Notes under the pieces: generated by a model
Told to the model about the DNA's origin: nothing
Seen by the model: only the letters and a program-made list of their open reading frames with translations
The model's database searches: none
Shown: positions 4,097 to 28,008 of the stretch, in pieces
Numbering within the stretch: the stretch's first letter is position 1
Layout of the letters: each line of letters begins with the position of its first letter
Translations under genes and position numbers: made by a program
From: Lachnospiraceae bacterium
GTDB taxonomy: Bacteria > Bacillota > Clostridia > Lachnospirales > Lachnospiraceae
DNA length: 64,000 nt
Assembly (NCBI GenBank): GCA_022794255.1
Contig: JAAWEL010000083.1
Coordinates: 1-64,000, forward strand
Direction: 5' to 3'

Positions 4097-4098
4097 CG

Positions 4099-9672: not shown

Positions 9673-9680
9673 GTGTTTTT

Positions 9681-10222
9681 ATGGGACGTTTAAAAGTATT
9701 GGTATATGATTTTGTCTATATTTTTATAAATTATTTTGTGGCAGGTATTCCATGTTGGTCTATCCGAAAAATGTTATATAAACTTTTTGGAATGAAAATT
9801 GGGAAGGGTTCAAGAATTAATATGAAATGCTTCGTGATAGAGCCATGGAATGTAAAAATTGGAGAAAACAGCATCATAAATGAAGTATGTCTTATAGACG
9901 GGCGGGGGGGGGATTTATAGGAGACAACTGTTCAATATCTATGAGAGTTACCATATATACAGCAAGTCACAATGTGGATGATGATAAGTTTGGCTATTAT
10001 GAAAAAAGTACCGTTATAAATGATGGTGTATGGCTTGGAGTGGGAGCTGTTGTTTTAGCTGGATCAGAAATAGAGGATGGGTGTGTTATTGCGGCTGGTG
10101 CTGTATGTACGCCAAAAAAATACGAAAGAAAATGCATTTATGCAGGTGTTCCGGCAATCAAGATAAGAGAAAGAAATATTAATGAAATAGAGAATTTAAA
10201 ACATGATATGGTTTTTAGATAA
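9681..10222 (+). CDS. Phase-variable hexapeptide acyltransferase, OFF at G9
   Basis: A left-handed beta-helix acetyltransferase broken by a G9 run at 9904-9912. The first frame reads 79 codons and stops at 9918-9920 just past ...EVCLIDGRGG. The remaining 104 residues (FIGDNCSISMRVTIYTASHNVD... VWLGVGAVVLAG... AGVPAIKIRE) continue in another frame. Ten or seven G would join them into a product of 180 or 179 residues. G10 gives RGGGFIGD, closest to the usual spacing of these proteins. The family transfers acetyl from acetyl-CoA to a sugar hydroxyl or amine, so switching would add or remove an O-acetyl group. As written the gene is OFF. A miscounted homopolymer in the assembly is the alternative. 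Confidence 0.85.
9904..9912 (+). repeat. G9 homopolymer tract in acyltransferase gene 1
   Basis: Nine consecutive G at 9904-9912 inside an A+T-rich coding region, in the Gly-rich stretch of a hexapeptide acyltransferase. Both sides are coding but in different frames. Such runs mutate in length by slipped-strand mispairing. Confidence 0.9.
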
Positions 10223-10278
10223 GACAGCATAGAATTGTGATTAAGGAGTCTAATTCCAAAAGGAAAGGAAGCATAGAA

Positions 10279-11415
10279 ATGTTGCATGTTTTACACTATA
10301 TAACAGGACTTCCAAAATCAAAAGGTGGCGTAGAGTCGTTTTTATTAAATATATATGATAGAGTGGACAAAGAAAAGTATCGGTTTTCGTTATTGACACG
10401 GAATTATGTGCCAAATTCGGAATTGTATAATGAATTCTGCAGGAAAGGAATAAAGATATATTCTCTTGACTCAAACAGAATATGTGGACTCAAGGATTAT
10501 ATAGCCTTTAAAAACAAGGTCAAAAAATTTTTTGACAAACATGTTGGAGAATTTGATTTTATTCATTCGCATTACATTGATGATCCGTTTATCCTTAGGT
10601 ATGCAAAAAGAAATGGGATAAAGAAAGCCGCATTACATGCACATGCTATGGAGAGAGAGGTAAACTCAAAACTTAAGAGAATAATAAAATCTTTATACTC
10701 TTACGAAAATATGCGATTTGCAGATTTTTTATTTGCATGTTCGGATAATGCAGGAAGATTTTATTATGGTAAAAAATATTACATTTTGATAAGAAATACC
10801 CTAAATACTGAAAAATACAAATTTCAGGAAAAAGTTAGAGAAAAGATTAGAACGGAATTAAACATAGAAAAATCCACATGTGCTTTATGTTACACGGGCA
10901 GATTTAGCAAAATAAAGAATATCCCTTTTTTATTGGAAGTTTTGTATGAGCTTGTAAAGAAAAATGAAGATTATAAGCTTTTTTTAATAGGAACGGGAAC
11001 TGATTCAGAAATTAATGCGTTAAATGAAATAGTTAATCAATATAAATTAAAGAATCATGTGATTTTTACAGGTGTGCGAGATGATGTTGAGTGTGTACTT
11101 CAAGGAATGGATATTTACATTCAATCATCAATAAGTGAAGGGTTTCCCTTTTCTGTCTTAGAGGCTGAATGTTCTGGATTACCTTGTTTGCTTTCAGAAG
11201 GAATTCCTGACAGTGTTGTGCTTACAGATCTTCCGCATAAAATCCCATTGGAAAGTGGAAGCGTGGCGTGGGCTGATTATCTAAACGAATTAATTAATTC
11301 AGATTTTTATAGAGATTTAAACAGGGGAAAGTATGCAATACAAATCGAACAACATGGTTTTGACGCTAAATCAGAAGCAAAAAGGTTATGCGAGTTTTAT
11401 GGAAAAGTCATATAG
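10279..11415 (+). CDS. GT4 family glycosyltransferase
   Basis: 378 residues of GT-B fold. The N-terminal domain opens MLHVLHYITGLPKSKGGVE, typical of EpsD/EpsF-like capsule transferases. The C-terminal domain has ALCYTGRFSKIKNIPFLLEV, the loop LFLIGTGTDSE and SISEGFPFSVLEAECSGLP with the retaining-GT E-x7-E pattern. The ATG at 10279 follows AAAGGAA by eight bases; a GTG at 10237 would add 14 poorly conserved residues. Its last 17 bases overlap the next gene. Confidence 0.87.
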   Translation: MLHVLHYITGLPKSKGGVESFLLNIYDRVDKEKYRFSLLTRNYVPNSELYNEFCRKGIKIYSLDSNRICGLKDYIAFKNKVKKFFDKHVGEFDFIHSHYIDDPFILRYAKRNGIKKAALHAHAMEREVNSKLKRIIKSLYSYENMRFADFLFACSDNAGRFYYGKKYYILIRNTLNTEKYKFQEKVREKIRTELNIEKSTCALCYTGRFSKIKNIPFLLEVLYELVKKNEDYKLFLIGTGTDSEINALNEIVNQYKLKNHVIFTGVRDDVECVLQGMDIYIQSSISEGFPFSVLEAECSGLPCLLSEGIPDSVVLTDLPHKIPLESGSVAWADYLNELINSDFYRDLNRGKYAIQIEQHGFDAKSEAKRLCEFYGKVI

Positions 11416-12691
11416 ATATAGAAGAAGAGGAATACAGTTAAACTGGAGAAGCTTTCTAGGAACATTACCCTTTGCCTTTCTGCTATTCAGATTCTATATA
11501 GGGGGAATAAGTAAAATACTTCAGTTAAGTATGGTTCTTATATTTATTGGACTGTACTTTTTTCAAAATATTTCGAGAGTCAGAAATAGATTGACTATAT
11601 TTATCAAAGGGTTTTTAATATTTTTCTTGTTTTTTATTATATCGATTTTGTATCCAGCATTTCTAGGTACAGGGGACTTTACTTACGCAAGGCTATTGGC
11701 ACCTTATTTTATTGATTTAGGATCATGGTCAGTATTTGTTTTACACTGTGACAAGCAACGGAATGAGAATAAAACCATTCTTAACATTCTTGCAGAGGAA
11801 TTTTGTAAAATAGTAACATTGTATATCATGTTTACCGTATTGTGTATGATAATTTCTCCGTTAAGAGAATTTGTCATCTCACACTCAAATTTAGATGATG
11901 CTATTTTGATGGACTTAAGGTATGAAAAGTATCTGGCAAGAGTCAGTTGGGATGGATTTGCCGGGTTCAAGGCTACTTTTATGTGTTCTTTGGGAGTTTT
12001 TCTATCATTAGTAAGTATTTCAAGTACAAAGAACAGGCTCTTACAAAGACGTTCTTACATATATTTAGGGATTATGTTGCTGGGAAATACATTCTACGGA
12101 AGAACGGGGCTTGTTACTTCTGGAGGATTGATTGTCATATATATATGTCGTGAGATAGTAGCAAAAAGGAAGTTAAAGACATTATTACGGATTGGATTTA
12201 TTTTTATTGCACTGATTGGAATTTACACAGTGATTGCACAGTTTAATGATTCATTACAATTTATATATAATTGGGCGTTTGAGCCAATTATTAACTATTT
12301 AAAAGGAAATGGACTCACCACAACATCATCCAGTAACTGGCTGACAATGTGGAACAGGGAATTTGAAATGGGTACTCTGCTACATGGGGACGGAAGATAT
12401 ACTCTGCCGGATGGGCATTATTACATGCGCATTGATATTGGAATCTATAGAATGATTTATATGTGGGGTATACCTATGATGTTACTATATTATTTTTATT
12501 GCCTAAATGAGTATAAAAAGACTGTGCTGTATAAAATCAATCACTTCACGTTTGTATATGTATTCTTTATATTTATGTTGTTTGAGATTAAGGGAGAGAT
12601 AGTCAGAAATTTATATGCAATCTTTATAGCATTTACGTTGTTAAGAGATGACGGTTTCATGTTAAGTGGAAGAAGATATGAAAAAAGTTAG
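11399..12691 (+). CDS. wzy: Wzy-like polysaccharide polymerase (O-antigen polymerase family)
   Basis: About 430 residues with roughly ten to eleven hydrophobic membrane segments and one large loop before the last segments (about residues 305-350), the usual Wzy plan. Wzy proteins have little sequence conservation, so the call rests on topology and context: Wzx is two genes downstream and no other candidate exists in this block. The ATG at 11399 overlaps the preceding gene by 17 bases; a longer in-frame start at 11333 would run deep into it. It would polymerise undecaprenyl-linked repeats at the outer face of the membrane. Confidence 0.72.
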   Translation: MEKSYRYRRRGIQLNWRSFLGTLPFAFLLFRFYIGGISKILQLSMVLIFIGLYFFQNISRVRNRLTIFIKGFLIFFLFFIISILYPAFLGTGDFTYARLLAPYFIDLGSWSVFVLHCDKQRNENKTILNILAEEFCKIVTLYIMFTVLCMIISPLREFVISHSNLDDAILMDLRYEKYLARVSWDGFAGFKATFMCSLGVFLSLVSISSTKNRLLQRRSYIYLGIMLLGNTFYGRTGLVTSGGLIVIYICREIVAKRKLKTLLRIGFIFIALIGIYTVIAQFNDSLQFIYNWAFEPIINYLKGNGLTTTSSSNWLTMWNREFEMGTLLHGDGRYTLPDGHYYMRIDIGIYRMIYMWGIPMMLLYYFYCLNEYKKTVLYKINHFTFVYVFFIFMLFEIKGEIVRNLYAIFIAFTLLRDDGFMLSGRRYEKS

Positions 12692-13634
12692 TGTTTTAAT
12701 GAGTGTTTTTAATGAGCCAGTAGGAATGCTTCGGGAAAGCATTGATTCAATATTGAAGCAATCATATAAAGAGATTGAATTTATTATTGTGTTGGATAAT
12801 CCCCAAAATACGTTGGTATTTCAACTTCTAAAAGACTATTCTTCAGCAGATGGCAGAATTGTTTTACTTGTGAACGATAAGAACATTGGATTGGCAATGA
12901 GTCTAAACAGAGCATTGTCTCTTGCAACAGGTGAGTACGTTGCCAGAATGGATGCTGACGATATTTCTAGTTTAAATCGTATAGAGGAAGAAATCCGATT
13001 TCTTGAGGAAAAAAGCTACGACATGGTTTTTTCTGACAGGGTTGATATTGATGAAAATGGTAAAAAGCTTAGATTAAAGGAAATCGAATCACATTCAGAT
13101 AAATATATAGAAAATGTTTTACCTTACAATTGTATTGTTAATCATCCGAGTATTTTGATTAAAACAAATGTGATTAAAGAATTATCGGGATACCGTAATT
13201 TTCATGCTTCTCAAGATTATGACTTGTGGTTAAGACTTTTAACTTCAGGATATAGGATTGGCTGCGTGCCCAAGCCACTTATAAGGTATCGCATTAGACA
13301 AGGATCAATATCAAAAGGGAAGAGATTTATACAATTTGAAACAGCAAGATATATCAGAAGCTTATATTATGAACGAAAAAAATGTGGATTCGATTCATAT
13401 TCCTTAGAAGCTTACACAGCCTATCTCACAAAGAGAGGGGTTTATGATGTGAGAATACAGAATAAGTTTAGTGATTCTATGAACTTTTATGAGAAAGCAA
13501 TGATTAGCCGAAGCAGGGGTGAAACGAAAGAGTTTTTAAAGAACTTTATTAAATCACTAAAGGGTTTGGAATGGGTCAGATACGTGGTTTTAATTACACT
13601 AAAGGAAAGAAAGATCAGTGTGCCCTATCTATGA
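12678..13634 (+). CDS. GT2 family glycosyltransferase
   Basis: 318 residues. KVSVLMSVFNEPVGMLRESIDSI starts the GT-A domain, followed by IVLDNPQNT, NIGLAMSLNRAL and the DxD-type metal site in YVARMDADDISSLNRIEEE. HASQDYDLWLRLL supplies the catalytic-base region. The ATG at 12678 follows GGAAGAAG; it overlaps the wzy end by 14 bases. It resembles capsule galactosyl/rhamnosyl transferases but the donor is unknown. Confidence 0.87.
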   Translation: MKKVSVLMSVFNEPVGMLRESIDSILKQSYKEIEFIIVLDNPQNTLVFQLLKDYSSADGRIVLLVNDKNIGLAMSLNRALSLATGEYVARMDADDISSLNRIEEEIRFLEEKSYDMVFSDRVDIDENGKKLRLKEIESHSDKYIENVLPYNCIVNHPSILIKTNVIKELSGYRNFHASQDYDLWLRLLTSGYRIGCVPKPLIRYRIRQGSISKGKRFIQFETARYIRSLYYERKKCGFDSYSLEAYTAYLTKRGVYDVRIQNKFSDSMNFYEKAMISRSRGETKEFLKNFIKSLKGLEWVRYVVLITLKERKISVPYL

Positions 13635-13655
13635 CAGAATGGAAGGATATAATAT

Positions 13656-15164
13656 ATGCGCACAACAAGAGCTGCAAAAAATGTAATAGCCTCTTTGTTA
13701 TATAAGATTGTAGCACTTATATGCGGGCTAATTGTTCCAAGGTTGATGCTTTCACACTTTGGATCCGAGTATAACGGTGTAGTTGCTTCAGCAACCCAGT
13801 TTATGAATTACATAACAATATTGACGATCGGTATTGCTGGTCCTACAAGAGTTGCCTTATATGATTCGTTAGCTAAGCATGATGAAGAAAAGACCAATGG
13901 GGTATTAAAAGCAACATCCGCTTATATGCAAAAGTTTTCGATTGCAATAGTGCTATATGCTTCTTTGATTATGATATTGCTCCCTCAGCTTGCGCATACC
14001 TCGCTTCCTGCGATGGAAGTAGCGCTTTTAGTAGCTATAGTTTCTTTTTCGATGTTTGTGGAGTACTTTTTTACAGTCACGAATCATACTTTATTGTCTG
14101 CTGATCAGCGAGAATATGTTTTTGATATTACATCAACAATAACGATAATTGCTAACTGTATCGTCATTTATGCTTTGATTAAATCGGGGTACGGTATTAT
14201 TATAGTCCGATTTGTTTCGGCATTAGTATTTTTTTTAAAACCAGTTATCATTGCATTATTTATTAAGAGAAACTATCAGATTAATAGAAAGGTGGATCCT
14301 GATTATTCTGCACTAAAAGAACGAGGTGATGCAGCGGCAACCTCGATTGCAAACCTAGTTCATGATAATATTGATTTGGTTATTTTAACTCTTTTTGTGG
14401 ATATCAAGCTTGTGTCTGTGTACACCGTTTACAATATGATAGCCGCACAGATAAGATCAGTAATGCAGGTATTTACAGGAGGTATGGAAGCTGGATTTGG
14501 AAACATTATAGCTAGAAATGAAAAGGAAACACTACAAAGAAATTTTAGGATTTATGAATATCTGGTTTTTGGTTTTGTTTCTGTGGTTATTTCATGTGCG
14601 TTTGTGCTTATTCTTCCTTTTATAAAAAACTATACAGAAGGTATACATGATATAAATTACATTGTTCCATCGTTTGCCTTTTTGATGGTATTTTGCGAGG
14701 CTACATATTGTATACGACAACCTTATGTCACAATTGTACAGGCAGCGGGGAAATATAGAGAAACTAGAGATGGCGCAATATTTGAGGCTGTATTGAATGT
14801 TATCTTATCGCTAATTTTTGTAAGGCTCATAGGTTTCCAAGGTGTGATTGTGGGAACAATATTTGCTAATATATTCCGCTCTGTGCAATACTGCATTTAT
14901 GTTTACAAAAATATTTTATATAAGAAACAGGATATAGTTTTATATAGAATAATATGGTGCATAGCTAATATAACGATTATATGTTTCTGCTCAAAATTAA
15001 TAATCTATCATGTAACATTTTTAAATGGATGGTTACTCTGGGTTTTGCATGCTGGAATCGCCTTGCTGGTTGCAGCATTTGTAACATTGATGTCATCGAT
15101 GATGTTTTATAAGTCAGATTTGTTAGGGATGAAGGAAACCATTCTGAGAGTTGTAAAGCATTGA
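13656..15164 (+). CDS. wzx: Wzx-type polysaccharide flippase
   Basis: 502 residues with about twelve to fourteen predicted membrane helices in the MOP-superfamily arrangement. The opening (ASLLYKIVALICGLIVPRLML) and the Tyr-Asn-Gly loop (FGSEYNGVVASATQF) are characteristic of polysaccharide transporters. Residues about 228-245 (ATSIANLVHDNIDLVILTLF) correspond to the conserved membrane-embedded charged helix. It would translocate the lipid-linked repeat unit. Together with Wzy it makes block 3 a Wzx/Wzy-dependent system. Confidence 0.88.
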   Translation: MRTTRAAKNVIASLLYKIVALICGLIVPRLMLSHFGSEYNGVVASATQFMNYITILTIGIAGPTRVALYDSLAKHDEEKTNGVLKATSAYMQKFSIAIVLYASLIMILLPQLAHTSLPAMEVALLVAIVSFSMFVEYFFTVTNHTLLSADQREYVFDITSTITIIANCIVIYALIKSGYGIIIVRFVSALVFFLKPVIIALFIKRNYQINRKVDPDYSALKERGDAAATSIANLVHDNIDLVILTLFVDIKLVSVYTVYNMIAAQIRSVMQVFTGGMEAGFGNIIARNEKETLQRNFRIYEYLVFGFVSVVISCAFVLILPFIKNYTEGIHDINYIVPSFAFLMVFCEATYCIRQPYVTIVQAAGKYRETRDGAIFEAVLNVILSLIFVRLIGFQGVIVGTIFANIFRSVQYCIYVYKNILYKKQDIVLYRIIWCIANITIICFCSKLIIYHVTFLNGWLLWVLHAGIALLVAAFVTLMSSMMFYKSDLLGMKETILRVVKH

Positions 15165-15183
15165 GTACTTTTATTGAGGAAGA

Positions 15184-15728
15184 ATGATCATGTTCAGGAT
15201 TATAGGATTTATAGTATATTTGTGCGCTCCGTTATTGGAAAAGTGGTTAAATTTTAAATATAATGCAGGCAGCTTTTTGAGAAAAAGATATTATGAATCG
15301 ACACTGGGCGCTTGTGGAAGAGAATTGGTTATTAATGGGAGACCAATATTATTTAATCTCCAAAAGATAAGTATTGGCAACCACGTGACCATAAATAATG
15401 GTTGTCAAATTTCCCCACAGGCTGGGACTGTTAAGATAGATGACTATGTTGTTATGTCACGAGGTTCACAGATAACAGCTGGTCAACTTGATACAAAGAA
15501 TTGGAAAATGTGTGTGGGGGGGGGTATAAAAGTGCTCCACATATTGCTTCAGATGTACATATTGGTGAAGGATGCTGGCTTTGTGTTAATTCAGTTGTTC
15601 TGCCAGGGGTTAATATTTCGGGGAAGGGAGTTATAGTAGCTGCCGGAGCGATAGTTACAAAAGACATAGAAGAGGACTATGTTGTAGTTGCAGGGGTTCC
15701 GGCAAAAATTGTTAAAAGGCTAGTATAG
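15184..15728 (+). CDS. Phase-variable hexapeptide acyltransferase, OFF at G9
   Basis: A second beta-helix acyltransferase split by G9 at 15516-15524. The first frame runs from 15184 (or ATG 15190, after GAGGAAGA) through ISIGNHVTINNGCQISPQAG and ...MSRGSQITAGQLDT, then becomes unrelated and stops at 15636. The true C-terminus (SAPHIASDVHIGEGCWLCVNSVVLPG... AGVPAKIVKRLV) is in another frame to 15728. G10 (or G7) restores 181 (or 180) residues. It should acetylate or otherwise acylate a sugar. It differs clearly from the switch at 9.9 kb, so two independently varying acylations are possible. Confidence 0.85.
15516..15524 (+). repeat. G9 homopolymer tract in acyltransferase gene 2
   Basis: Nine G at 15516-15524 at the join between the two halves of a hexapeptide acyltransferase. 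The surrounding gene is A+T-rich, which makes a run of nine G by chance unlikely. Confidence 0.9.
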
Positions 15729-15738
15729 AAAACGCTTT

Positions 15739-16416
15739 ATGATGAATCATGACATAAAAAAGGAGAAGCTGGCTGTGTTTGATTTTTGCGGAACCATAGC
15801 GAATTTTCAGACTTTTGATCCGTATTTACTTTTCGTTTTAGGAAAAGCTAAGAGAAGAAGGCCAGTAATAGAAAAACGAATAGTAAGATCAATAATAGAG
15901 TACATTGATCGAGTGATACATATATTTGATAATGATTTTTATTTACATAAATACTTACTGGTTTGGATGACGCGTGGAATTTCGGAAGAAGAGTTGGTCG
16001 AATTTGGAAAGCAATACTATGATGAATGTATAAAACCAAATCTTATATCTGAGACAATTTCCTTAATTAAACAATTCCAAAAGGAAGGATATTATATGAT
16101 AATAGCCAGTGCGGGAAGCAAATACTATATCAAGCACTTTGCTGACGATTATGGATTTGATAAATGTATCACTGCTGAGATTGGGATGATAAATGGACAG
16201 TCAACAGGGAGACTTATCACTGATTGTATGGGGGAGAGAAAAGCATTTCTATTAAGGAATTATGCTAAGGAATTAGAGGAAATGATTGAAATAATTGTAT
16301 CAGATAGCATTTCAGATTTGCCGATTTTTAGAATGGGAAAACGGAAAATAGTTATTTCAAAAGAGAAGCATCAGTACTGGGTAGATAACAGTATGGAGGA
16401 AATTTTATGTCATTAA
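15739..16416 (+). CDS. HAD-superfamily (IB-like) phosphatase with variant motif I
   Basis: 225 residues. Motif I is VFDFCGTIANFQT: the nucleophile Asp is present, but the second Asp of the normal DxD is Cys. Motif II (IIASAGSKYY), a Lys region (GERKAFLLRNY) and motif III (IIVSDSISDLPIF) are present. HAD-IB enzymes hydrolyse small phosphomonoesters. It starts 10 bases after the acyltransferase, without a clear ribosome binding site, so its translation may depend on that gene and hence on the G-tract state. By analogy with C. jejuni capsule genes it could dephosphorylate a phospho-amino-alcohol after attachment (inference). Confidence 0.75.
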   Translation: MMNHDIKKEKLAVFDFCGTIANFQTFDPYLLFVLGKAKRRRPVIEKRIVRSIIEYIDRVIHIFDNDFYLHKYLLVWMTRGISEEELVEFGKQYYDECIKPNLISETISLIKQFQKEGYYMIIASAGSKYYIKHFADDYGFDKCITAEIGMINGQSTGRLITDCMGERKAFLLRNYAKELEEMIEIIVSDSISDLPIFRMGKRKIVISKEKHQYWVDNSMEEILCH

Positions 16417-17360
16417 AAGATCAAATTAAGAAGAATGATTTTATATATTTTTCTTTGAAAAAATCACTATTCTTCTTAAAGTATACGGTACCAAATGCTG
16501 CTTTTAGAGAAAAATATGCGGAGTATGTTATCAAAAAGAGATTTAGGCAGACATTTGGGAGAGAGATTAACTTAGAGAGCCCCACAACACTTAATGAGAA
16601 ACTACAATGGCTTAAATTGAATATACATGAAGATTTTCATACACAGTGCGCAGATAAATATAAAGCCAGGGATGTTTGGAGAAAATATGGTGAAGATGGA
16701 CTGATTCCTTTGTTGTTTAAGACATATGACTATAGAGACATAACCATAGAATCCATTCCTGATGAACCATGTATAATCAAAGCTAATACTGGCTGTGGGT
16801 CATATCATATTATAAGAGATAAGTCGGATATTAATATAAAGAGTATTCAACGTGAATGTCGGTCTTGGTTAGTGGGTAACTATTATTATGTATCGCAAGA
16901 GTGGCAGTATAAGAACATAAAACCTTGTATTTTAATAGAAAAACTTCTTTTAGATGCTAATGGGAAAATACCCAATGATTATAAATTTAACTTTATTAAT
17001 GGAGAATTGCAATTTATTTATTGCTCAGTTGATAGAGAAGGACAAAACTATCGGAGCATCTATGGACCTGATTGGAAAAGATTGAATATCGAATGGGTTG
17101 GCAAGAACAATCATAAGGGAACCCTTGTTGGAGCAGATATTCAGCCTCCGCATAATTTAGACAGGATGATTGAAATTGGCAAGGACATTGCTAAAAGATT
17201 TTGCTATGTACGAGTTGATTTTTATGAGGTAGATAAAAGATTATATTATGGGGAAATAACACTTCATCATGGATCCGGTTTTGATACATTTGAACCAGAA
17301 GAATACGACTATATATATGGGGAAAAATTAAAATTACCAGTCAATAAGGGGAATCATTGA
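16407..17360 (+). CDS. TupA-like ATP-grasp protein
   Basis: 317 residues matching the TupA-like ATP-grasp family of polysaccharide loci: TLNEKLQWLKLN, CADKYKARDVWRKYG, PCIIKANTGCGSYHII (ATP-binding), ILIEKLLLD, PNDYKFNFINGEL and the metal-binding end (VRVDFYEVDKRLYYGEITL HHGSGF). TupA takes part in teichuronopeptide synthesis, so an amide- or ester-forming ligase acting on uronic acid carboxylates is reasonable. It overlaps the HAD gene by 10 bases. A uronic acid donor is provided by the dehydrogenase at 7.2 kb. Confidence 0.85.
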   Translation: MSLKDQIKKNDFIYFSLKKSLFFLKYTVPNAAFREKYAEYVIKKRFRQTFGREINLESPTTLNEKLQWLKLNIHEDFHTQCADKYKARDVWRKYGEDGLIPLLFKTYDYRDITIESIPDEPCIIKANTGCGSYHIIRDKSDINIKSIQRECRSWLVGNYYYVSQEWQYKNIKPCILIEKLLLDANGKIPNDYKFNFINGELQFIYCSVDREGQNYRSIYGPDWKRLNIEWVGKNNHKGTLVGADIQPPHNLDRMIEIGKDIAKRFCYVRVDFYEVDKRLYYGEITLHHGSGFDTFEPEEYDYIYGEKLKLPVNKGNH

Positions 17361-17362
17361 TC

Positions 17363-18469: not shown

Positions 18470-18471
18470 TA

Positions 18472-18587: not shown

Positions 18588-19700
18588 ATGCTTAAAATCA
18601 AAAGGAAGCTAATAAAAATATACATTCGCATGTATCAGTTGCTTCACCCTATAGAAAAACAAGTTACATTTGATAGTTTTAATGGTATGCAATATTCAGA
18701 TAATCCAAGAGCGATATCTGAGAAATTACATGAACTGGATCCAAATTATAAGATTGTCTGGCTCATGAGGGAATTCGATAGTAAAAATGTAGAAGTGCCT
18801 CAATATGTTAGGATTGTCAATTATAATGGAAGAAATATGCTTCAGGAGATTTCAAAATCGAAAGCATATGTCACCAATTGTGAGTTGACATCTGAATTTG
18901 CAAAAAGGAAGGGGCAGATATTTATTCAAACCTGGCATGGAGATATTTGTTTCAAAAAAATGCTTTTAGAAGTCGATAGGAGCTTGCCAGTTTTTGACAA
19001 TAAATATACGGACTATTGCTTAAGCGGATCGGAATATGGAAAAAGGCGATATAAAACGGTTTTTGAATACAATGGAAGTATATTAAATGTTGGATCACCA
19101 AGGAATGACATTCTTTTCAAAAATGATGCCGCAGAGATTCTTAGGGTAAAAGAGAAATTAGGTATAGATGGCAATGCAATGGTATTACTTTTTGCCCCGA
19201 CATTTAGAGACAGCAATAAAGAAGGATTGAATATCGGATTTGACATTGAAAAGATCTTAAAATTACTTAAAAAGAAGACGGATAAAACATGGATTTGTCT
19301 TGTCCGTGCACATGTAGGTTCGACTATTCTAAAATCCCCCAACTGCATTGATGTTACATCCTACCCGGATATGGCAAGAATACTTTTAATTACAGATTAT
19401 TTAATATCGGATTATTCATCTTGCGCGACTGATTTTTTGATCAAAGATAAACCAGTTATATTATATCAATACGATATAGAAAAATATGAAAAAAAGGATA
19501 GGAAGCTTGATTTTGATTCTAAAGAAGCCGGATTTATTGTTGCAGATACAGAAAAAGAGCTGTATAGGATAGTGGAACATACGAGTCTTGATGCGTTCAA
19601 AGAGAGCAATCAACGGGTTCGGGACTACTTTCAGATGAATGAAACGGGGAAAGCTTCTGAAATTGTAGCCAAAATAATAATTAACGGGAGACCCAAATAA
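18588..19700 (+). CDS. TagF/TagB-like CDP-glycerol glycerophosphotransferase
   Basis: 370 residues with the family signatures FIQTWHGDICFKKM, TDYCLSGSEYGKRRY, LLFAPTFRDSN, LISDYSSCATDFLIKDKPVILYQYD. These GT-B proteins transfer glycerol- or ribitol-phosphate from CDP donors to teichoic acids and capsules. The length is about that of TagB, so a single-unit transferase is more likely than a long-chain polymerase. No separate tagD gene is seen, but the N-terminal domain of the 927-residue protein at 20.8 kb is a cytidylyltransferase that could provide the donor. A 118-base gap precedes it and the Shine-Dalgarno is weak. Confidence 0.87.
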   Translation: MLKIKRKLIKIYIRMYQLLHPIEKQVTFDSFNGMQYSDNPRAISEKLHELDPNYKIVWLMREFDSKNVEVPQYVRIVNYNGRNMLQEISKSKAYVTNCELTSEFAKRKGQIFIQTWHGDICFKKMLLEVDRSLPVFDNKYTDYCLSGSEYGKRRYKTVFEYNGSILNVGSPRNDILFKNDAAEILRVKEKLGIDGNAMVLLFAPTFRDSNKEGLNIGFDIEKILKLLKKKTDKTWICLVRAHVGSTILKSPNCIDVTSYPDMARILLITDYLISDYSSCATDFLIKDKPVILYQYDIEKYEKKDRKLDFDSKEAGFIVADTEKELYRIVEHTSLDAFKESNQRVRDYFQMNETGKASEIVAKIIINGRPK

Positions 19701-19701
19701 T

Positions 19702-20753
19702 ATGGAAAAGAATGTGGATGTGATAATCCAGCGGAGAGAAGAGTTATTACAAAGGCTCAATGATGAAATAAATTTTTATGGGGGGGGGTATGATGAATGG
19801 TGGAATGAATATGATGATTTCAGGAAATCCATTGGCTGCTATACAAAGTTGATATTTGGAAAAACCTACAAAATTTTTCCAACAATATTAAAGGATGGAA
19901 ATTTAATTGATCATCATATCATATCTTATCTAGCGCCTATGAGTTTTAAGGCGAGAGGATGGAATGGAATGTATCTTACCCCAGCGGAACATCTGAGCTT
20001 ATTTGCCAATTATTTTATTGAGAAAGGGATAAGATTCATTTATGTTCCGCTTCCAAATAAAGGTGTTATATATCCTTCTATTATTTCTAAAGTTGATTGC
20101 TATTCCAGCTACAACTCACCACAATGGAGAAAGTATATTCACTCTATACTGAATCAGTCCCCTGGCATTGAAATAGTTGATGGATTTGATGTTTTGAATC
20201 GCAATAAAGCTTCAAATAATGTTTTTGCAAAAGGACACCATATATCAAGTATTGGTGCAGACATTATTGCCAGTGAAGTAGCCGAATATCTTTTGAAAAG
20301 TACAAATGATATAAAGCCACAAATCGATTTATATAGAAAGATAGAATCGTATAAGTATTATGATTGGGATTATATTTCAAGGGACCATTTGTATACTGAG
20401 GAATTAGTGATTCATTATGACAAAAAAACGATAAACCATTCTATGCAACGGATTTTTGTAACACTAGTAAGATAGGAATCATTGGTGATTGCAACATACA
20501 GCATTATCAAACACATGCGGCAAGTCTTGTAACAAGTCTCAGTTATTATACAAATTATACTTTTGATGAGGTTGGAAGATACCTTCCATTTGATTGGGTG
20601 AACTCTATTACGACAGATATATTAAAGAGGCTGTGCGAAAAAGAAATTGTAATTTATATCGCTTTTGCATCAGCATCATTCGTAAGATCGAGACTTTTTA
20701 GTCGAAGAAGGTTAGGAAATCCTAACATGTGGAGTAGTATAAAGTTAGTTTAG
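19702..20753 (+). CDS. AlgX/AlgJ-like (SGNH) protein, G9-containing, frameshifted at A7
   Basis: The frame from 19702 passes in phase through G9 (19780-19788, coding Gly-Gly-Gly) and shows SGNH/AlgX-like features: GIRFIYVPLPNKGVIYPS and the His-containing KGHHISSIGADIIASEVAEYL. It stops at 20475. The C-terminal part (SKIGIIGDCNIQHYQTHAASL..., then EIVIYIAFASASFVRSRLF) continues in another frame to 20753. The shift falls at an A7 run (20422-20428), where eight A would give one protein of 350 residues. Family D-x-H and GDS triad positions read as GHH and GDC here. AlgX-like proteins O-acetylate polysaccharides outside the membrane, but no signal peptide or membrane helix is visible. Either the gene is truncated, or A7 is an assembly error. 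Confidence 0.6.
19780..19788 (+). repeat. G9 homopolymer tract in AlgX-like gene
   Basis: Nine G at 19780-19788 about 26 codons into the gene. At this length the frame is open across the run (ON state for this part), unlike the other four tracts. Confidence 0.9.
20422..20428 (+). repeat. A7 run at the frame break of the AlgX-like gene
   Basis: Seven A at 20422-20428 between HYDKK in one frame and NDKPFYATDF in another. One extra A would join them. It may be a second slippage site, a fixed mutation or a sequencing error. Confidence 0.6.
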
Positions 20754-20769
20754 TGAGGTAGGCTTATAA

Positions 20770-23553
20770 ATGAACATATCTTATTCTTTCGGCATGGTTG
20801 ATCTGATGCATTTTGGTCACATAACAGCTATAAGAAAAGCGTCTGTTGGATCTGACTTAAATATTTTTGGGCTTGTTAGTGATGAAGCATCTGATGCTTG
20901 GTTTGGGGCGCATGTTTCGAGTGAAGATGAACGATGTACCGTTCTTGAAAGTATTAAATATATTGATGAAGTTTGGCCTCAAACAACATTTGATCCTTTG
21001 GATAATTTGCGTGAAATTCACAAGAAATACCCCAATGCTGTGATTTCCTTATTTACTGGGAACGAGTGGGGGATAATAGCTGCAAAAAAATATGTGGAGT
21101 CAATAGGCGGCAGAGTTGTTAAACTTGATTATTATGACAAATTGTCACCACAAGCCATTCTTGATACGCTAAATAATAATAGAACAGAAAAAAAGCCTCT
21201 TAACAATAATTTAATTTCAACAAAGGCGAACACATTACAGTCCCTAAAGGATGTAATAACAAAAGCGTATATCGAGGATATTTTTGTAATTACAGTTGGT
21301 GAATTTAAAACAGAGGAAACCGAAGTATTAAGGAAAATATCGGGGTATTTTGAAAACGGCCGAATTGTTGTGAGAAGTTCATCTAAAAGAGAAGATGCTT
21401 TTGAAGAATCGAATGCTGGTCACTTTACATCAATTTTAAATGTTGATATACATGATTCAGAAGCAGTAAAACACGCAATTTCAACGGTAATCCTTTCCTA
21501 CGGTGAAGATGTGGAAGATGACGAGCAGGTGTTAATTCAAAGACAGACAGATCATGTTCTTTCTTCTGGTGTGGTTTTCACTCGCGACATACAAAGAAAT
21601 CGTCCCTATTATGTAATCAATTATGATGATAGTGGGAGGACCGATTCAGTAACTTCAGGCTCTGGCAGTACCTCGGCGTGGATGTCATATTCATTAACCA
21701 GAGAAAACATACCCGAAAAATGGCGTATGCTCATGGATGCGGTGTGGGAGATAGAGGATCTTTTAGCTGGTATACTTCTGGACATAGAATTTGCGATTAC
21801 CCCTGAATCCGTTGTTGTTTTTCAGGTACGTCCCCTGGCTGCTGCTTATAAATTCGGGAGAGTAAATAATGATCAAATTGTCGAGGAAGTAAAGTCGGAA
21901 GTGATCAAAAAATATCTGAAATGGAAGGATCTTGGGCTAACTTGCTTTTCTGATATGGCGTTTTGGAATCCTGCCGAGATAATAGGAGATAATCCGAAGA
22001 ATCTTGACTATTCATTATATCGTGAAATCATAACAAAATCTGCTTGGAATGTCGGCCTTGTTCCTATGGGTTACAGGCCGGTCTCAAAAGAACTTATGTT
22101 TCGCATTGGAAATAAACCATACATAAGCGTTGAAAGATCTTTTGAGGCATTGATGCCTGGAACAATATCAGATAAACTGGCTGTCAAGCTTCGGAAATAT
22201 TATGTTGATAATTTAAATAGAGACCTGTCTGCTCATGATAAGATAGAATTTGAGATTTCTCACAATTGTTTTGATTTCTCAATGCATAAACGTCTTGCAA
22301 ACCTTATGGCTGACAGGTTCTCAACAGAGGAAGTGCTTGAGCTTGAAATCGCTTTAAAGAATTTGACAGTAAAGAATATAAAATACTATAAAGATGTTTT
22401 GGAAGCGGACATTGCTGATTTAAGACAACTTGAAGGTGTTCGTCTTGATGTTCAGAACATAACAAAAGACAGCAATGATTATCGTTTAATATCTAAATCT
22501 ATTCATACTTTGCTTGATGCGGTTAATAAGTTCGGTACCCCTCAGTTCTCCCGCCATGCGCGATGTGCTTTTATTGCTAAATCGATATGCAAATCCCTTG
22601 TCACAGAAAAATACATAAATTCGGATCAATATAGTACATTTATGTCGAGTATTCATACGGTTGCAGTAGATTATGACAAGGACTATCATGCTGTTTTGGA
22701 AAGCAGGATGACTAAAGAGGAGTTCTGCTTTACTTATGGTCATCTCAGAGCTGGAACATACAACATAAGAAGTCCTCGATATGATCAAATGGATGAACTT
22801 TTTACGGAAAATGAAAAAAGTCCAAGAACGATTGATAATGGGATAATTGATTGTGATGAAATTATACAGAAGGCATTAGATAAAGCAATAATTGATGCTG
22901 GATTTGAAAATATTAGTGGTGAGGAAGTTCTTCATTTTATAAAGACGGCTACTGAGCAGAGAGAATATTTTAAGTTTATATTTACGAAGAGTTTGAGCTT
23001 TACTATAGAACTAATCAAACAAGTGGGAAGTATAGCAAAAATAGATATAAACGATTTGTCCTATCTTGAACTCCCGGAAATCTATGCTTCTGAGTATTAT
23101 TCAGATGTTGATCGCTTGCATGAATTTTGGTCACTTATCATAAATAAAAGACGTGAACTTTTCAAAATAAATGCAGAGATGATTCTTCCGGAGGTTATAA
23201 CATCAGAACAGGACTTTGGATACATTGAGAATATAGATTCGCGGCCGAATTATATTACTGAAGGTATAATAACGGGTGAAATAGTGGTTCTAAAGGACGA
23301 GACATTCCAATCGATTGATGGGAAGATAGTGGTTATAGAAAAAGCCGACCCAGGTTTTGACTGGATTTTTTCCAAGGGAATTGCAGGACTTATTACAAAA
23401 TATGGTGGTGCGGCATCACACATGGCAATCCGCTGTGCGGAGTTCAAAATTCCTGCAGCAATTGGAAGTGGAAACAAATTGTATGAGTATGCTGCAAAAT
23501 CCAAACAAATCATGATTGACTGTATGCACGAAAGAATTATAAGGATGGAGTAA
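20770..23553 (+). CDS. Cytidylyltransferase fused to L-glutamine kinase-like PEP-synthase protein
   Basis: 927 residues. Residues 1-140 are a small cytidylyltransferase domain with the HxGH signature (H14-F-G-H17 in MVDLMHFGHITAIRKAS), like CDP-glycerol or CDP-choline synthetases. Residues about 150-365 are the ATP-binding domain of the pyruvate-phosphate dikinase family (GRIVVRSSSKREDAFE; VLSSGVVFTRD; EFAITPESVVVFQVRPLA). Residues 827-925 are the swivelling phosphohistidine domain (KYGGAASHMAIRCAEF, H884). Removing the first ~150 residues leaves the size and order of C. jejuni Cj1418, the L-glutamine kinase that phosphorylates the amide nitrogen of glutamine. The next two genes match its partners. 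The start is ATG 20770, after GTGAGG. The added cytidylyltransferase is the unusual part. Confidence 0.82.
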   Translation: MNISYSFGMVDLMHFGHITAIRKASVGSDLNIFGLVSDEASDAWFGAHVSSEDERCTVLESIKYIDEVWPQTTFDPLDNLREIHKKYPNAVISLFTGNEWGIIAAKKYVESIGGRVVKLDYYDKLSPQAILDTLNNNRTEKKPLNNNLISTKANTLQSLKDVITKAYIEDIFVITVGEFKTEETEVLRKISGYFENGRIVVRSSSKREDAFEESNAGHFTSILNVDIHDSEAVKHAISTVILSYGEDVEDDEQVLIQRQTDHVLSSGVVFTRDIQRNRPYYVINYDDSGRTDSVTSGSGSTSAWMSYSLTRENIPEKWRMLMDAVWEIEDLLAGILLDIEFAITPESVVVFQVRPLAAAYKFGRVNNDQIVEEVKSEVIKKYLKWKDLGLTCFSDMAFWNPAEIIGDNPKNLDYSLYREIITKSAWNVGLVPMGYRPVSKELMFRIGNKPYISVERSFEALMPGTISDKLAVKLRKYYVDNLNRDLSAHDKIEFEISHNCFDFSMHKRLANLMADRFSTEEVLELEIALKNLTVKNIKYYKDVLEADIADLRQLEGVRLDVQNITKDSNDYRLISKSIHTLLDAVNKFGTPQFSRHARCAFIAKSICKSLVTEKYINSDQYSTFMSSIHTVAVDYDKDYHAVLESRMTKEEFCFTYGHLRAGTYNIRSPRYDQMDELFTENEKSPRTIDNGIIDCDEIIQKALDKAIIDAGFENISGEEVLHFIKTATEQREYFKFIFTKSLSFTIELIKQVGSIAKIDINDLSYLELPEIYASEYYSDVDRLHEFWSLIINKRRELFKINAEMILPEVITSEQDFGYIENIDSRPNYITEGIITGEIVVLKDETFQSIDGKIVVIEKADPGFDWIFSKGIAGLITKYGGAASHMAIRCAEFKIPAAIGSGNKLYEYAAKSKQIMIDCMHERIIRME

Positions 23554-23566
23554 TTGGGGACGAAAA

Positions 23567-24178
23567 GTGAAGACAATTATTTATACACAAAGAGTCGAAA
23601 CGATTGAATCATATGGTGAGAGAAGAGACTGCGCTGATCAGCGTATCGCTGAATTTATCCGGATATGTGGATATCTTCCAATACCTATACCGAATAATCC
23701 TAAACTTGTTAAGGACATAATGGACGTATTGAATCCTGATGGGATTATTCTTGTGGGAGGAAACAGTTTAGTAAAATATGGAGGAAACGCTCCTGAGAGA
23801 GATGAAACAGACAAGCGGTTAATAGAAATGTCTATAGATAAGCGTATTCCGCTCTATGGTTTCTGTCGAGGAATGCAGTCAATCCTTGACTATTTTGGCA
23901 ATGATTTGATTAGAGTTCCCAACCATGTTGCGGTAAGGCATGCTGTTTTCGGAGAAGAAGAAACAACTTTAGTGAATAGTTATCATAATGAAGCTTGCGT
24001 TGAACTTAAGAGTAATGAAATAAAATGCGTGATGCGTGGGGAAGATGGTGTGATAGAGAAAATTAAGCACAAATCTTTACCTGTCGTTGGTACAATGTGG
24101 CATCCGGAACGAGAAAACCCCTTCCGTGAAGGCGACATATTATTTATAAAGAAATTTATGGGAGATATAGAAGAATGA
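23567..24178 (+). CDS. Class-I glutamine-amidotransferase-like hydrolase (gamma-glutamyl-CDP-amidate hydrolase candidate)
   Basis: 203 residues. It has the nucleophile C100 in LYGFCRGMQSILDYFG and the partner H179/E181 in VGTMWHPERENPF, so the Cys-His-Glu triad is complete. The family (peptidase C26-like) cleaves gamma-glutamyl bonds. In C. jejuni the homologous Cj1417 releases CDP-phosphoramidate from gamma-glutamyl-CDP-amidate, and here the gene is placed between kinase and cytidylyltransferase just as expected. It starts at GTG 23567 six bases after GGGGA, and overlaps the next gene by ATGA. A general gamma-glutamyl-GABA hydrolase is the less contextual alternative. Confidence 0.82.
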   Translation: MKTIIYTQRVETIESYGERRDCADQRIAEFIRICGYLPIPIPNNPKLVKDIMDVLNPDGIILVGGNSLVKYGGNAPERDETDKRLIEMSIDKRIPLYGFCRGMQSILDYFGNDLIRVPNHVAVRHAVFGEEETTLVNSYHNEACVELKSNEIKCVMRGEDGVIEKIKHKSLPVVGTMWHPERENPFREGDILFIKKFMGDIEE

Positions 24179-24978
24179 AAGGAATTATCTTAGCTGCTGG
24201 TTCAGGTACAAGGTTAAAAAAATACACGGAGAATCTTCCTAAAGGGATGCTTTCTTTTATGGGGAAAACTATCATTGAAAGGCAAATTGCAGTTTATCGC
24301 TCTTGTGGAATCCAAGATATTATTATTGTTCGAGGTTTTGCGGCTGAAAAGATAGACTATGAAGGTGTGAAATACTACACAAACGAACAATATGCTTCTA
24401 CAAATATGGTAGAGTCTTTAATGGAGGCTAAAAAGGAATTTACGGATGATATTATTGTAAGTTATTCAGACGTACTTTTTGAGCCGGAGATGCTTAGGAG
24501 GATGATGGCTTCAAAGGCGGATTTTGCTTGTGCGGTCGATGACAATTGGAAAGTATATTGGATGAAGCGGTATGGAAAGATCAATTTTGATACTGAGAGT
24601 TTAACGATTGATAAGAGCGATAATATTACAGAGTTAGGGTTGGAAAATCCTCCAATTGAGAAAATAAGTGCAAGGTATATAGGACTCCTTAAGTTCTCCG
24701 TTAATGGGCTTAGATTTATTCAGGAAACAATGGAAGCAGCATATAAAAAGTTTGAAGAAAAACCATGGCAACAGTCAGGTAAGACTGTGAGAAAAGCATA
24801 TATGACAGATCTTTTAAATGCAATCATTGAGTCTGGACGAGAAGTCAAGGCAGTTCATTTTAACAATGGGTGGATAGAGTTTGATACCAATGAAGATTAC
24901 GAGAATGCGATTGAATGGGTTAAGGATAAAACTATTTCAGAGGTTATAAAATGTTTAAAGAATGTCCGAAAGGTATAA
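24175..24978 (+). CDS. Nucleotidyltransferase (phosphoglutamine cytidylyltransferase candidate)
   Basis: 267 residues with the sugar-phosphate/choline-phosphate nucleotidyltransferase fold. It opens MKGIILAAGSGTRLKKYTENLPKGML; NEQYASTNMVESLMEA and IIVSYSDVLFEP carry the metal-binding Asp; the end has GWIEFDTNEDYENAIEWV. This matches LicC/Cj1416-type enzymes, which use CTP to activate phosphocholine or L-glutamine phosphate. With its two upstream neighbours the best assignment is CTP:phosphoglutamine cytidylyltransferase. A phosphocholine enzyme is possible but no choline kinase or transporter is next to it. Confidence 0.8.
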   Translation: MKGIILAAGSGTRLKKYTENLPKGMLSFMGKTIIERQIAVYRSCGIQDIIIVRGFAAEKIDYEGVKYYTNEQYASTNMVESLMEAKKEFTDDIIVSYSDVLFEPEMLRRMMASKADFACAVDDNWKVYWMKRYGKINFDTESLTIDKSDNITELGLENPPIEKISARYIGLLKFSVNGLRFIQETMEAAYKKFEEKPWQQSGKTVRKAYMTDLLNAIIESGREVKAVHFNNGWIEFDTNEDYENAIEWVKDKTISEVIKCLKNVRKV

Positions 24979-24983
24979 TACAA

Positions 24984-26461
24984 ATGAAACATAGAAAAAA
25001 AGTGTTTGATATTATCTTTTTGTTAAGCCTATTCTTCTTGTGCTACATATTTTTCACTAATATTCATCCGCTTACAATATATGATTCAGATGACTGGGCA
25101 CAATACTTCCGATACAGGAATGCAATTCCGATATGGGGATCTTTTAATCCGGTTAAGTTATTTCCTGAAACATTAATGCCATTATCTGCTGATATAGCGG
25201 GATATATACTATATCCTTTGCTTCATGATTTTATCTACTCTTTAACTTTGGTGACGGCATTTTGGCTATGCTTTTTCATCACTTGGTATATATATGAGAT
25301 ATATAGATTCATTGAATATTTAGGGGTTGATGGTTATGGCCGAATAATTGCTTTTTGTATATTTTTTCTGCATTTTGTATTATTTAAAATATCTGACAAA
25401 GGCTATATACCATATCTCTTTGGAGCACATAATGTATCATGTGTGTTTCACTATTCCATTCCCATGCTGCTTAATATGATTTTAGTGATAAGACTGGCTG
25501 TAGGGGGGGGGAATTGGGAAAAGGTGAATTAGCTAAAGGAGTTACGCTGCTATGCGTATATTTGGCTATTTTTTCGAATTTGTATTGTAGTATTATCCTT
25601 ATGTCATATGCAGCATCTAAGATAATAATTGGATATGTCAGAAAAACTCGTCCCAAATACTTTAAACTATATATAGGCATTTCTCTTTTGTATATTTGCT
25701 CTCTGATGTTTGAATGGAATGGAACACATAGAAGGGGGTTTGTTACCAGTGAAACCAGAATAGACTTATGGGGAAGTATAATATCATTATTCAGAATACT
25801 TAGCCGAATGAACGGAATCGCTTATATTCTGCTTATTATTTTATGTATAGGTATTGTAATATTCATAAAATATAGATCCGATTATTTTGAAACATATAAT
25901 ACACTGACAGAACTTGTTCTGGCATATGGGGGAGCATTGACCGCGTACATTATCTTGCAGGCCACAACTGGTTCTACCGGAGTTTGGTATGTCTCCAGAG
26001 TGGAAGTTTTACTGGGTATAGCATTTTATCCATTTTTGTTTTTGTGTTGTTCGCTATATGTCATATACAAAAAGATGGATTATCTTTTTCGGGTTATACC
26101 TATTCTAAGCTATATTCTTGTTGTCAATTGGGTATTGAAATTTGATTACTATATGCCATCAACCTGCGATTGTGTAAAGGAGTCATATGCCTATGAATTA
26201 GCTTCTTATGAATTGAGGGAATGTGAGAAAGCTGAACAAGGTGAAAAGATGCCTGTATATACAATATTGATTCCAATTCATGATACTTTTGAGTCAAGAG
26301 AAAATTGGCCGCATATGGGGTTTGGCGATTCTTTGTCCAAAGCAGCGTTTCGATATGGTTTTACGAAAACAAAAATACCAATCAATGTAAAACCAGATAT
26401 CAGCGTGAATGAGAAATATAATATACCATATAATTTCTACAATAGTGGTTTGGTGTATTAA
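24984..26461 (+). CDS. Phase-variable GT-C-like membrane glycosyltransferase, OFF at G9
   Basis: A polytopic membrane protein cut by G9 at 25503-25511. The first frame has five or six helices and a luminal IYDSDDWAQYFR motif after helix 1 (the acidic pair used by GT-C catalysis) and stops at 25532. The remaining 312 residues with about six more helices and a soluble tail run to 26461 in another frame. G10 (or G7) gives 492 (or 491) residues. ATG 24984 after GAAAGG is used. It lies just before gtrBA-like genes, so it probably adds a sugar from an undecaprenyl-phosphate carrier to the finished polymer (GtrC role, inference). Confidence 0.78.
25503..25511 (+). repeat. G9 homopolymer tract in GT-C-like gene 1
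   Basis: Nine G at 25503-25511 about 173 codons into the gene, at the end of a membrane helix (MILVIRLAV then Gly codons). The flanking frames differ by one base. Confidence 0.9.
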
Positions 26462-26506
26462 TAAGATTAAAATTCAATCTATTGAAAGGAGATGACACAC
26501 AATAAT

Positions 26507-28008
26507 ATGGATGGATTAAACGAAAGAAAAAACTATCTGATAATTTTGCTTTGTATATTAGCGATAATTCCCATGGTTGCTATGGGCATATATTGTAGAC
26601 CTTTGGCTGACGACTATGGTGCATGTCTACAAACGCGTCCCGTTCTGGAAAATGGGGGGGGGTAGTCGAACTGATAAAGGCGGCGTTTGAGCATGTTTAT
26701 ATTATTTATAACTCATGGCAAGGAGTTTACACATCTGAGTTTTTGTTCTCTATATATCCGGGGTTGTTTAATGAAAAATACTATATTTTAACGCCGCTTA
26801 TTTTTACAATTATTCCTTTGGTTTTGGGGTATGCATCAATTCGATTGATGGATAAGTATCTGCTGAAAGAATCAAAGAGCTTTTGCCTTGCATTGACCCT
26901 TTTTATCGTGATGTTTTATCTGCTTTGGTTGCCCCATCCCAATGAGGGATATTATTGGTATTCGGGGGCGATTAACTATCTTCCATGGTTTTTTCTTTCA
27001 ATTTATAATATATGTTTGTTAATTGACCTATATCAAGTAAGTTTAAAATGTGATGTCAGCATACGCAAATACATAATATACACGATTGCAAGCTGTTTTT
27101 GTGGCTTTCTGATATCTGGAGCACATTTGTCAATAGCATTTGAAAATGTTCTTGTGATGCTATTGATCGAAGTGTTTTTTTTGGTTAAAGGTAAATATAA
27201 GATTGCTGTTATCCCATTGATTGTATGTATAGTGTGTTTTTATATCAATATATCTGCACCCGGTACTGCTGTCAGGAGAACTAATTTTACAGGAGAACCG
27301 CTCTTAAAATCAGTGGAGATGACACTTCAGAGGCTATATTATTGTATTTTTGAATATACTACATTGCATGTTGTGGTTTTTCTAATAGCACTGACACCAA
27401 TTGCAGTCAGAATAACAGAAAAGATAAAGACAATAATTAAGCAGTGGCATATTATAGCATCAATGGTAATCAGTTTTCTTTTGATGTGTGCAACAATAAT
27501 TATGCCATACTATTCCATGGGTTACTGGGGAGATGGAAGGTATGTAAATCTTGTATGGGTAAACCATATCTTCTTTTTATCATTAAACTATATCATGATA
27601 GTGATTTATTTATTGCAAAAAGATTGGTTTTCCGGCATTAAAGATATTGGTAGAACCGTGTCTGGCGGTAAATTGACCGTATTTACATGTATCGCTTTGA
27701 CGATAATTGTATTTATTCCCAAACCAGATACTTTTAATAATAAGTATGGATTTACTAGTGAATTGGGGTATTCAAACAGTATAAAAGCAGTTATAGAGAT
27801 TTCAAATGGATCCGCAGCACAATATGCAAAGGAACTGGATGAAAGGATTGAACTGTATAATGATGATTCAGTTGAGGAGGTGGTTGTAAGTTATCTGACA
27901 AGAAAGCCATATCTTTTATATTTCAGTGATCTCACATCTGATCCAACAGTTTTTCCTAATACTTCTGTCATCAAGTATTATGGGAAGAAGTCGGTTGTAG
28001 CACAATAG
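26507..28008 (+). CDS. Phase-variable GT-C-like membrane protein, OFF at G9
   Basis: The start is ATG 26507, with GAAAGGAG (26483-26490) upstream. It reads 52 codons (signal-anchor helix then CRPLADDYGACLQ, an acidic GT-C-like motif) into G9 at 26654-26662 and stops immediately. The rest (VVELIKAAFEHVYIIYNSWQGVYT... about ten helices) is open to 28008 in another frame. An internal ATG at 26623 could open that frame but skips the first helix and the ADDYG motif, so a working protein needs G10 or G7 (500 or 499 residues). It resembles DUF6056-like membrane proteins. A second switchable GtrC-type transferase is the favoured reading. Confidence 0.78.
26654..26662 (+). repeat. G9 homopolymer tract in GT-C-like gene 2
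   Basis: Nine G at 26654-26662, directly followed by TAG in the current frame, so translation ends there. The tract lies shortly after the presumed catalytic ADDYG motif. Confidence 0.9.

Follow-up and report, generated by a model that had tools for sequence, protein, structure and literature searches.

Poly-G runs in a surface-polysaccharide locus of a Lachnospiraceae bacterium: probable contingency tracts within a genus-wide repertoire

Five G9 tracts in one locus

The DNA described here comprises the first 64,000 nucleotides of contig JAAWEL010000083.1 from a Lachnospiraceae bacterium (assembly GCA_022794255.1); this whole 64-kb stretch is called the window. It carries a polysaccharide locus in which five genes each contain a run of exactly nine guanines (G9). 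All five runs are on the forward strand, at 9904..9912 (tract 1), 15516..15524 (tract 2), 19780..19788 (tract 3), 25503..25511 (tract 4) and 26654..26662 (tract 5), as a preliminary description of this DNA had located them. The A+T-richness it had claimed for the surroundings is also borne out: the G+C content of the block at 9681-28008 is 34%. Tracts 1 and 2 interrupt hexapeptide acyltransferase genes, the first of them for an O-acyltransferase with a left-handed beta-helix. Tract 3 is close to the start of an AlgX-like (SGNH) gene, whose frame is open through the tract. Tracts 4 and 5 interrupt, respectively, a gene without a known family and a DUF6056 gene.

How unusual are these runs? Besides the five G9, there is no G or C run of seven or more anywhere in the window, and runs of six amount to seven G6 and one C6. 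A dinucleotide shuffle of the whole window, which retains the GG pairs contributed by the tracts themselves, gave on average 1.04 hits (maximum 10), with five or more in 2 of 100 shuffles, and speaks only moderately against chance. Order-1 and order-2 simulations of the block, 100 runs each, gave means of 0.01-0.04. The strongest test is the distribution of run lengths over the entire genome that contains the window (3.42 Mb in 90 contigs, 86.8% complete), in which there are 39 runs of exactly G7, five G8, 16 G9 and none of G10 or longer. The decay from G7 to G8 predicts 0.64 G9 runs, an expectation that rests on five G8 runs only, and the Poisson probability of the 16 observed is about 2e-17. 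These 16 runs are also clustered, with nine pairs at most 10 kb apart against 0.70 expected. Contingency loci are recognized by a repeat tract longer than chance in a gene or promoter, and such tracts are found here.

A further mark of these loci is that a length change of one unit alters the reading frame or the promoter spacing. This applies to four genes of the window, and other species of the genus show tract genes in both states, open and shifted (see below). The genes at 9681, 15184, 24951 and ∼26486 lose their frame at the tract, where the upstream and downstream frames meet; in the profile searches, the two pieces of each gene were therefore treated as separate queries. The offset is identical in all four, in agreement with the earlier claim that one common change would repair them. 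The downstream frames remain open for 102, 67, 315 and 447 codons (tracts 1, 2, 4 and 5); given the local frequency of stops, the chance of such openness is 1e-4, 3e-3, 4e-11 and 2e-18, respectively.

The interrupted genes differ in how well they are characterized. In the tract-1 gene (9681..10222, +), the upstream frame (9669-9917) and the downstream frame (9884-10219) match successive parts of the WcaF-family profile NF007797, at its positions 39-86 and 95-181. The tract-2 gene (15184..15728, +) is defined by its frame break and its profile matches: the downstream piece matches the C-terminal parts of the WbbJ and maltose acetyltransferase profiles, and the upstream piece has a weak match to Hexapep (E 0.015). 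The tract-4 gene (24951..26461, +) runs from 24951 to 25532 and then continues in the frame 25475-26461; its pieces matched no Pfam family, and the downstream piece had no relative among solved structures or plasmids. The tract-5 gene (26486..28008, +) belongs to Pfam DUF6056, and one single-sequence structure model of its downstream piece alone was of very low confidence (mean predicted local distance difference test score, pLDDT, 40.5). The latter two genes had been labeled GT-C-like, a label that the searches did not confirm; the two acyltransferases and the AlgX-like protein were recovered.

The AlgX-like gene (19702..20753, +) is a case of its own. Its match to PF16822 (E 3.6e-5, 24.0 bits) falls slightly below the 26.5-bit cut-off. 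The G9 is crossed in an open frame, and the break occurs instead at an A7 run (20422..20428, +), where the first frame (to 20475) gives way to the second (20421-20750). Both pieces match a homologue in a congener, locus L055 of G011, that is itself split at a G10. The preliminary description was right that this fifth gene is uninterrupted at its G9, but the gene is not simply ON, given the A7 break. The number of 2^5 surface variants proposed there is nominal because of this second break.

Tracts across the genus

Is this a peculiarity of one locus? The preliminary description had proposed a comparison with related genomes, and among congeners tract lengths vary and open and shifted states are both present. 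Runs of at least nine G were found in all 23 congeners searched, from 1 to 39 in each and 203 in total. Of these, 138 were examined, clusters being preferred in the choice, and they comprise 66 G9, 45 G10, 15 G11, 8 G12 and 4 longer runs. The lengths span G9-G18 and differ between tracts and between species, each species being represented by one genome. The frame state was judged by a longest-frame rule that makes no use of homology and demands at least 150 open bases on each side; among the 47 tracts with such long flanks, the frame runs on through 21 and is shifted at 26. As for orientation, the longest local frame has the tract on its coding strand in 94 of the 138 cases and on the opposite strand in 17; the remaining 27 are in short frames or none. 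Homologous genes bear their tracts at differing places, as seen for the AlgX-like gene in G011 and for a LytTR regulator in G004 (L167), where a G10 coincides with the beginning of the open frame or immediately precedes it.

The tracts tend to occur together. Clustering was tested in the ten congeners with at least eight sites, the 13 with fewer being left out, and it was significant in six of them (G003, G009, G011, G019, G021 and G023). For example, there were 14 pairs against 2.8 expected in G009, 10 against 1.7 in G011 and 4 against 0.2 in G023.

Which genes are affected? A Pfam scan of 93 of the 94 coding-strand tract pieces was compared with a control of 93 open frames without a tract, out of 506 such frames in these stretches. 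Among the best 25 of 107 families at the tracts, Hexapep comes first with seven pieces, followed by methyltransferases with four, several glycosyltransferase families and formyl transferase with three each, and AlgX, acyltransferase-3 and LytTR with two each. Hexapep thus accounts for 7/93 tract pieces versus at most 1/93 control genes. The leading control family, epimerase/dehydratase, shows the opposite pattern (5/93 versus at most 1/93 at tracts). Methyltransferases are not among the control families with two or more members. Accordingly, acyltransferases are over-represented at congener tracts, precursor-sugar enzymes are under-represented and glycosyltransferases are neither, while methyltransferases are perhaps over-represented. 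A PADLOC scan of the 93 pieces gave no general defence signal among the best 25 of 104 families: these are mostly single members of restriction, reverse-transcriptase and other models, with mad2 reaching three.

Other tracts in the same genome

Read by eye, 12 of the 16 G9 runs of the genome lie inside genes, nine of which are interrupted and three open; for two of the nine (C35:2432 and C63:57357), the reading depends on an upstream piece that is short, 36 and 32 amino acids. One interrupted gene, a hexapeptide acyltransferase on contig C63, has an offset different from that of the other eight. Beyond the window, there are tracts in genes that match a family-2 glycosyltransferase, GtrII (weakly) and a GDSL esterase. 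By one rule of orientation, 13 of the 16 runs are on the coding strand, two are on the other strand and one is unassigned. Contig C35 bears two G9 and two G8 runs, and these two G8, of the five in the genome, were interpreted by eye: one gene is interrupted and the other, an acyltransferase-3 gene, is open.

At C64:112846 (L044 6847), the G9 separates the receiver from the LytTR domain of a response regulator, and switching of such a regulator would have wide effects. The four runs not in genes precede a DctM transporter gene and two further genes or, in one case, lie in a flagellin leader. The leader tract (C64:129588, L045 7589) is directly upstream of a gene that looks flagellin-like by eye. 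The runs on C90 (L047 6894) and C86 (L046 7515) are both intergenic. One of the two is flanked, as judged by eye, by TTGACA and TAAAAT at a distance of 15 bases, a spacing below the accepted range of the promoter scan; the other is just upstream of TTGTCA-17-TATAAT, and the gene behind it has a signal-peptide-like start. For the three intergenic G9 runs scanned, the promoter matches are consensus matches only.

Homologues and G9 runs outside the genus

For a wider view, 397 genomes of the family from 334 genera were sampled. The downstream piece of the tract-5 gene was matched in 30 of 298 other genomes of the family, and 29 homologous loci from other genera could be compared. In 27 of them the gene is a single frame of 483-566 amino acids, the exceptions being L206, split into 305 + 210 amino acids, and L208, with a 431-amino-acid frame. 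The upstream and downstream pieces match the same frame in 14 of the 29 loci (upstream E <0.005, composition correction off), or in five loci at E ≤0.001 when default statistics are used for the upstream piece. No G or C run of seven or more is present in 27 of the 29 loci; L181 has a G8 elsewhere in the frame. Outside the genus, most homologues of this gene are intact and have no tract.

Exact G9 runs occur at least once in 227 of the 397 genomes, and the genome studied here ranks fourth with its 16. A genome of another genus, G185, has 105 in an assembly of 1.6 Mb that is 68% complete. Ten of these were read: seven are open, two are shifted and one is in short frames, in genes that are housekeeping-like by eye. 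A high G9 count alone was considered as a mark of phase variation and dropped on account of G185: the count proves no switching because the ten tracts read in this genome are mostly open and in housekeeping-like genes.

Proposed slipped-strand switching and its alternatives

Taken together, the five G9 runs are likely to be slipped-strand contingency tracts of a surface-polysaccharide locus, probably for a capsule, and part of a repertoire that extends over the genus. This agrees with the phase-variation reading of the preliminary description, as the comparisons gave what it predicts: one run length in excess, clustering, lengths that vary from species to species, genes found both open and shifted, homologues of one gene that for the most part are intact and have no tract, and downstream frames that are kept open. 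Contingency genes typically act at the cell surface, and a polysaccharide locus is where the genes for the acyltransferases, the AlgX-like protein and the DUF6056 protein are found, which suggests that this would be the case here.

As for the mechanism, a G run would gain or lose one G during replication, and the change in length would move the rest of the gene into or out of frame. At any time only some cells, and not always the same ones, would then express each of the decoration enzymes (the two acyltransferases, the AlgX-like protein, the DUF6056 protein and the one of unknown family), and every cell would make the polymer backbone.

Several observations weigh against this explanation. The data are assemblies, with one genome per species, so that length variation within one population is something we infer, as are the expression of the joined genes and the capsule product. 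For tract 4, the congener loci fetched contain no homologue of its pieces that would confirm one joined gene. Glycosyltransferases are not enriched at congener tracts, with 3, 3 and 3 members of three Pfam families versus 4, 3 and 2 in the control. There is no clustering in G004, G012 and G013, and it is marginal in G022 (17 of 18 sites in the list). The abundance of G9 in G185, outside the genus, points in the same direction, and so does the offset shared by eight of the nine interrupted genes. Finally, this genome and 13 of the 14 congeners searched have a MutS1 that scores above the curated cut-off, and its presence should lower slippage rates.

The uniform length of the tracts raises a question about the assembly itself, in which a length cap is possible. 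The tracts could be real while runs longer than nine are undercalled, and the dominant cells would then have intact copies of at least some, perhaps all, of the four interrupted genes: the mechanism of phase variation would remain, and the OFF states given above would be wrong. All 16 runs of at least nine G in this genome are exactly nine, while 72 of the 138 in congeners are longer, a difference with a chance of about 8e-6. The A and T runs hint at the same (25 of exactly nine and none of ten or more, against 168 and 20 in 14 congeners, chance about 0.06), and the common offset of eight interrupted genes is what an undercall would produce. Yet the window contains 16 A and 18 T runs of 7-8 and is nevertheless mostly covered by long frames, as judged by eye, and the two G8 genes of C35, one interrupted and one open, indicate that lengths do differ. 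The one interrupted gene with another offset also argues against it. Moreover, no length is more frequent than G9 in the genus sample, and G9 is also what the slippage bias published for Campylobacter jejuni would lead one to expect: insertion is reported to be favored at G8 and deletion from G11 upward, which appears to hold tracts mainly at G9/G10 (PMC8355987). The lengths seen here would fit such a bias. On balance, an undercall is a possibility to be taken seriously, though we would not expect it.

Could the runs instead be neutral, arising from skewed composition, and the breaks those of ordinary decaying pseudogenes? A few G9 are common in many genera of the family, and the runs of G185 are mostly open where read, which would suit this idea. 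It is nonetheless improbable: the block is A+T-rich and has neither G7 nor G8, the G9 excess has no G8 shoulder, the genome is fourth among 397 in its G9 count, its tracts fall predominantly on the coding strand, and each of the four split genes has its two frames meeting at the tract, with the downstream one staying open. Programmed ribosomal frameshifting or transcriptional slippage at the G9, by which every cell would make both products, could account for the uniform length and uniform offset of the four window genes. However, lengths and offsets differ among congeners, 21 of 47 genes there are simply open, homologues have the tract elsewhere or not at all, and the window genes belong to different families, all of which makes this explanation very improbable.

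A phosphoramidate-like cassette between the tracts

Between the tract-bearing genes lies a group that deserves attention. A gene at 20770..23553 (+) encodes a 927-amino-acid fusion of a cytidylyltransferase-like domain with a phosphoenolpyruvate-utilising kinase (PF01467, PF01326, PF00391), a candidate glutamine kinase. It is followed by a C26-type glutamine amidotransferase (23567..24178, +; PF07722) and by a nucleoside triphosphate transferase of the phosphocholine-cytidylyltransferase type (24175..24978, +; PF12804), whose nearest solved chain is 1jyk (E 7e-17); both are candidate members of one cassette. A protein of the CDP-glycerol (cytidine diphosphate-glycerol) glycerophosphotransferase family (PF04464) is encoded nearby at 18588..19700 (+). 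Judged by Pfam classes, kinase, C26 hydrolase and cytidylyltransferase genes are thus found together. They are classes that we take to be those of Cj1416-Cj1418 in the phosphoramidate pathway of C. jejuni, and the triad is a candidate counterpart of that pathway.

The grouping recurs elsewhere. Homologues that share 35-46% identity with the kinase part over most of its length exist in nine further genomes of the family, and a tenth has a partial one. The full triad occurs in two other genera, G311 and G143, and in three others the kinase and the C26 protein appear to be fused, the latter matching the same open frame as the kinase. A plasmid of Vibrio alfacsensis has the three genes in the order seen here, and the next gene on it is annotated to the CDP-glycerol glycerophosphotransferase family.

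In C. jejuni, the first step of the phosphoramidate pathway is catalyzed by a glutamine kinase (PMC6429109), and the phosphoramidate transferases are phase-variable (PMC9561416, PMC8355987). The same three enzyme classes as in the C. jejuni O-methyl phosphoramidate pathway would be present here, between genes with tracts. There are differences too: the kinase of the window has an extra N-terminal cytidylyltransferase-like domain, no methylation step was identified in the locus, and the likeness is one of domain classes rather than of a comparison with Campylobacter proteins.

Other features of the window are more conventional. The polysaccharide core genes (2021..6308, +) include a CapD-like dehydratase and an initiating sugar transferase, both by Pfam, and have no G run of seven or more; the gene between these two has, by eye only, the look of a DegT-type aminotransferase. 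The preliminary description had set such run-free core genes apart from the decoration genes. Its statement about runs holds for the whole window, while its wzx (13656) and wzy (11333) had no Pfam match at E 0.001, and these labels remain its own. Two neighboring NusG-like-looking genes at 411-2000 open the locus; the first matches PF02357, and the pair is presumably of the LoaP type. A SAM (S-adenosylmethionine) riboswitch, RF00162, is at 52314-52430 (61 bits).

Relation to known systems

The best-known examples of poly-G contingency genes come from Campylobacter and comparable bacteria in which mismatch repair is weak. The capsule locus of C. jejuni offers the closest parallel: several of its genes (cj1421, cj1422, cj1426 and others) carry poly-G runs, mainly of 9-10, with ON and OFF states, and they serve non-essential capsule modifications (PMC8355987, PMC9561416). 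The host described here is instead a clostridium, the gene families are different, and switching is proposed from the DNA. Another difference is that C. jejuni is described as having no functional mismatch repair (PMC8355987), whereas MutS is present here; therefore, rates may be lower in these Clostridia.

Phase variation outside the Proteobacteria is not new. Papers on phase variation in two Gram-positive-type bacteria, Gardnerella (PMC11287997) and Mycobacterium tuberculosis (PMC11898584), mention homopolymeric tracts, in other phyla and in other genes than those considered here. A different comparison comes from the gut. In Bacteroides, capsule phase variation is due to invertible promoters: as in the present proposal, a commensal would switch its surface polysaccharides stochastically, but by promoter inversion there and by slippage within genes here. 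In the open-access literature, mostly at the level of titles and beginnings of abstracts, with subscription papers mostly and preprints entirely outside its scope, there was no report of poly-G phase variation in Lachnospiraceae. The kind of system is known; its host group and its genus-wide extent appear to be new.

Outlook

A broader picture can be drawn, although only tentatively. A whole genus of Clostridia, presumably gut-dwelling, might possess a contingency system in the style of Campylobacter despite having MutS, and in the present locus it might phase-vary the decoration of a capsule bearing phosphoramidate. Such a system could span several polysaccharide loci, a LytTR regulator and genes preceded by a G9, the flagellin gene among them. 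The resemblance to C. jejuni would then be a convergence in both chemistry and switching.

What would such a repertoire mean? If the tracts act as proposed, a genus-wide set in Clostridia would make surface decorations differ from cell to cell. This would bear on phage sensitivity, on immune recognition and on strain typing, and also on how broken genes in metagenome assemblies are to be read.

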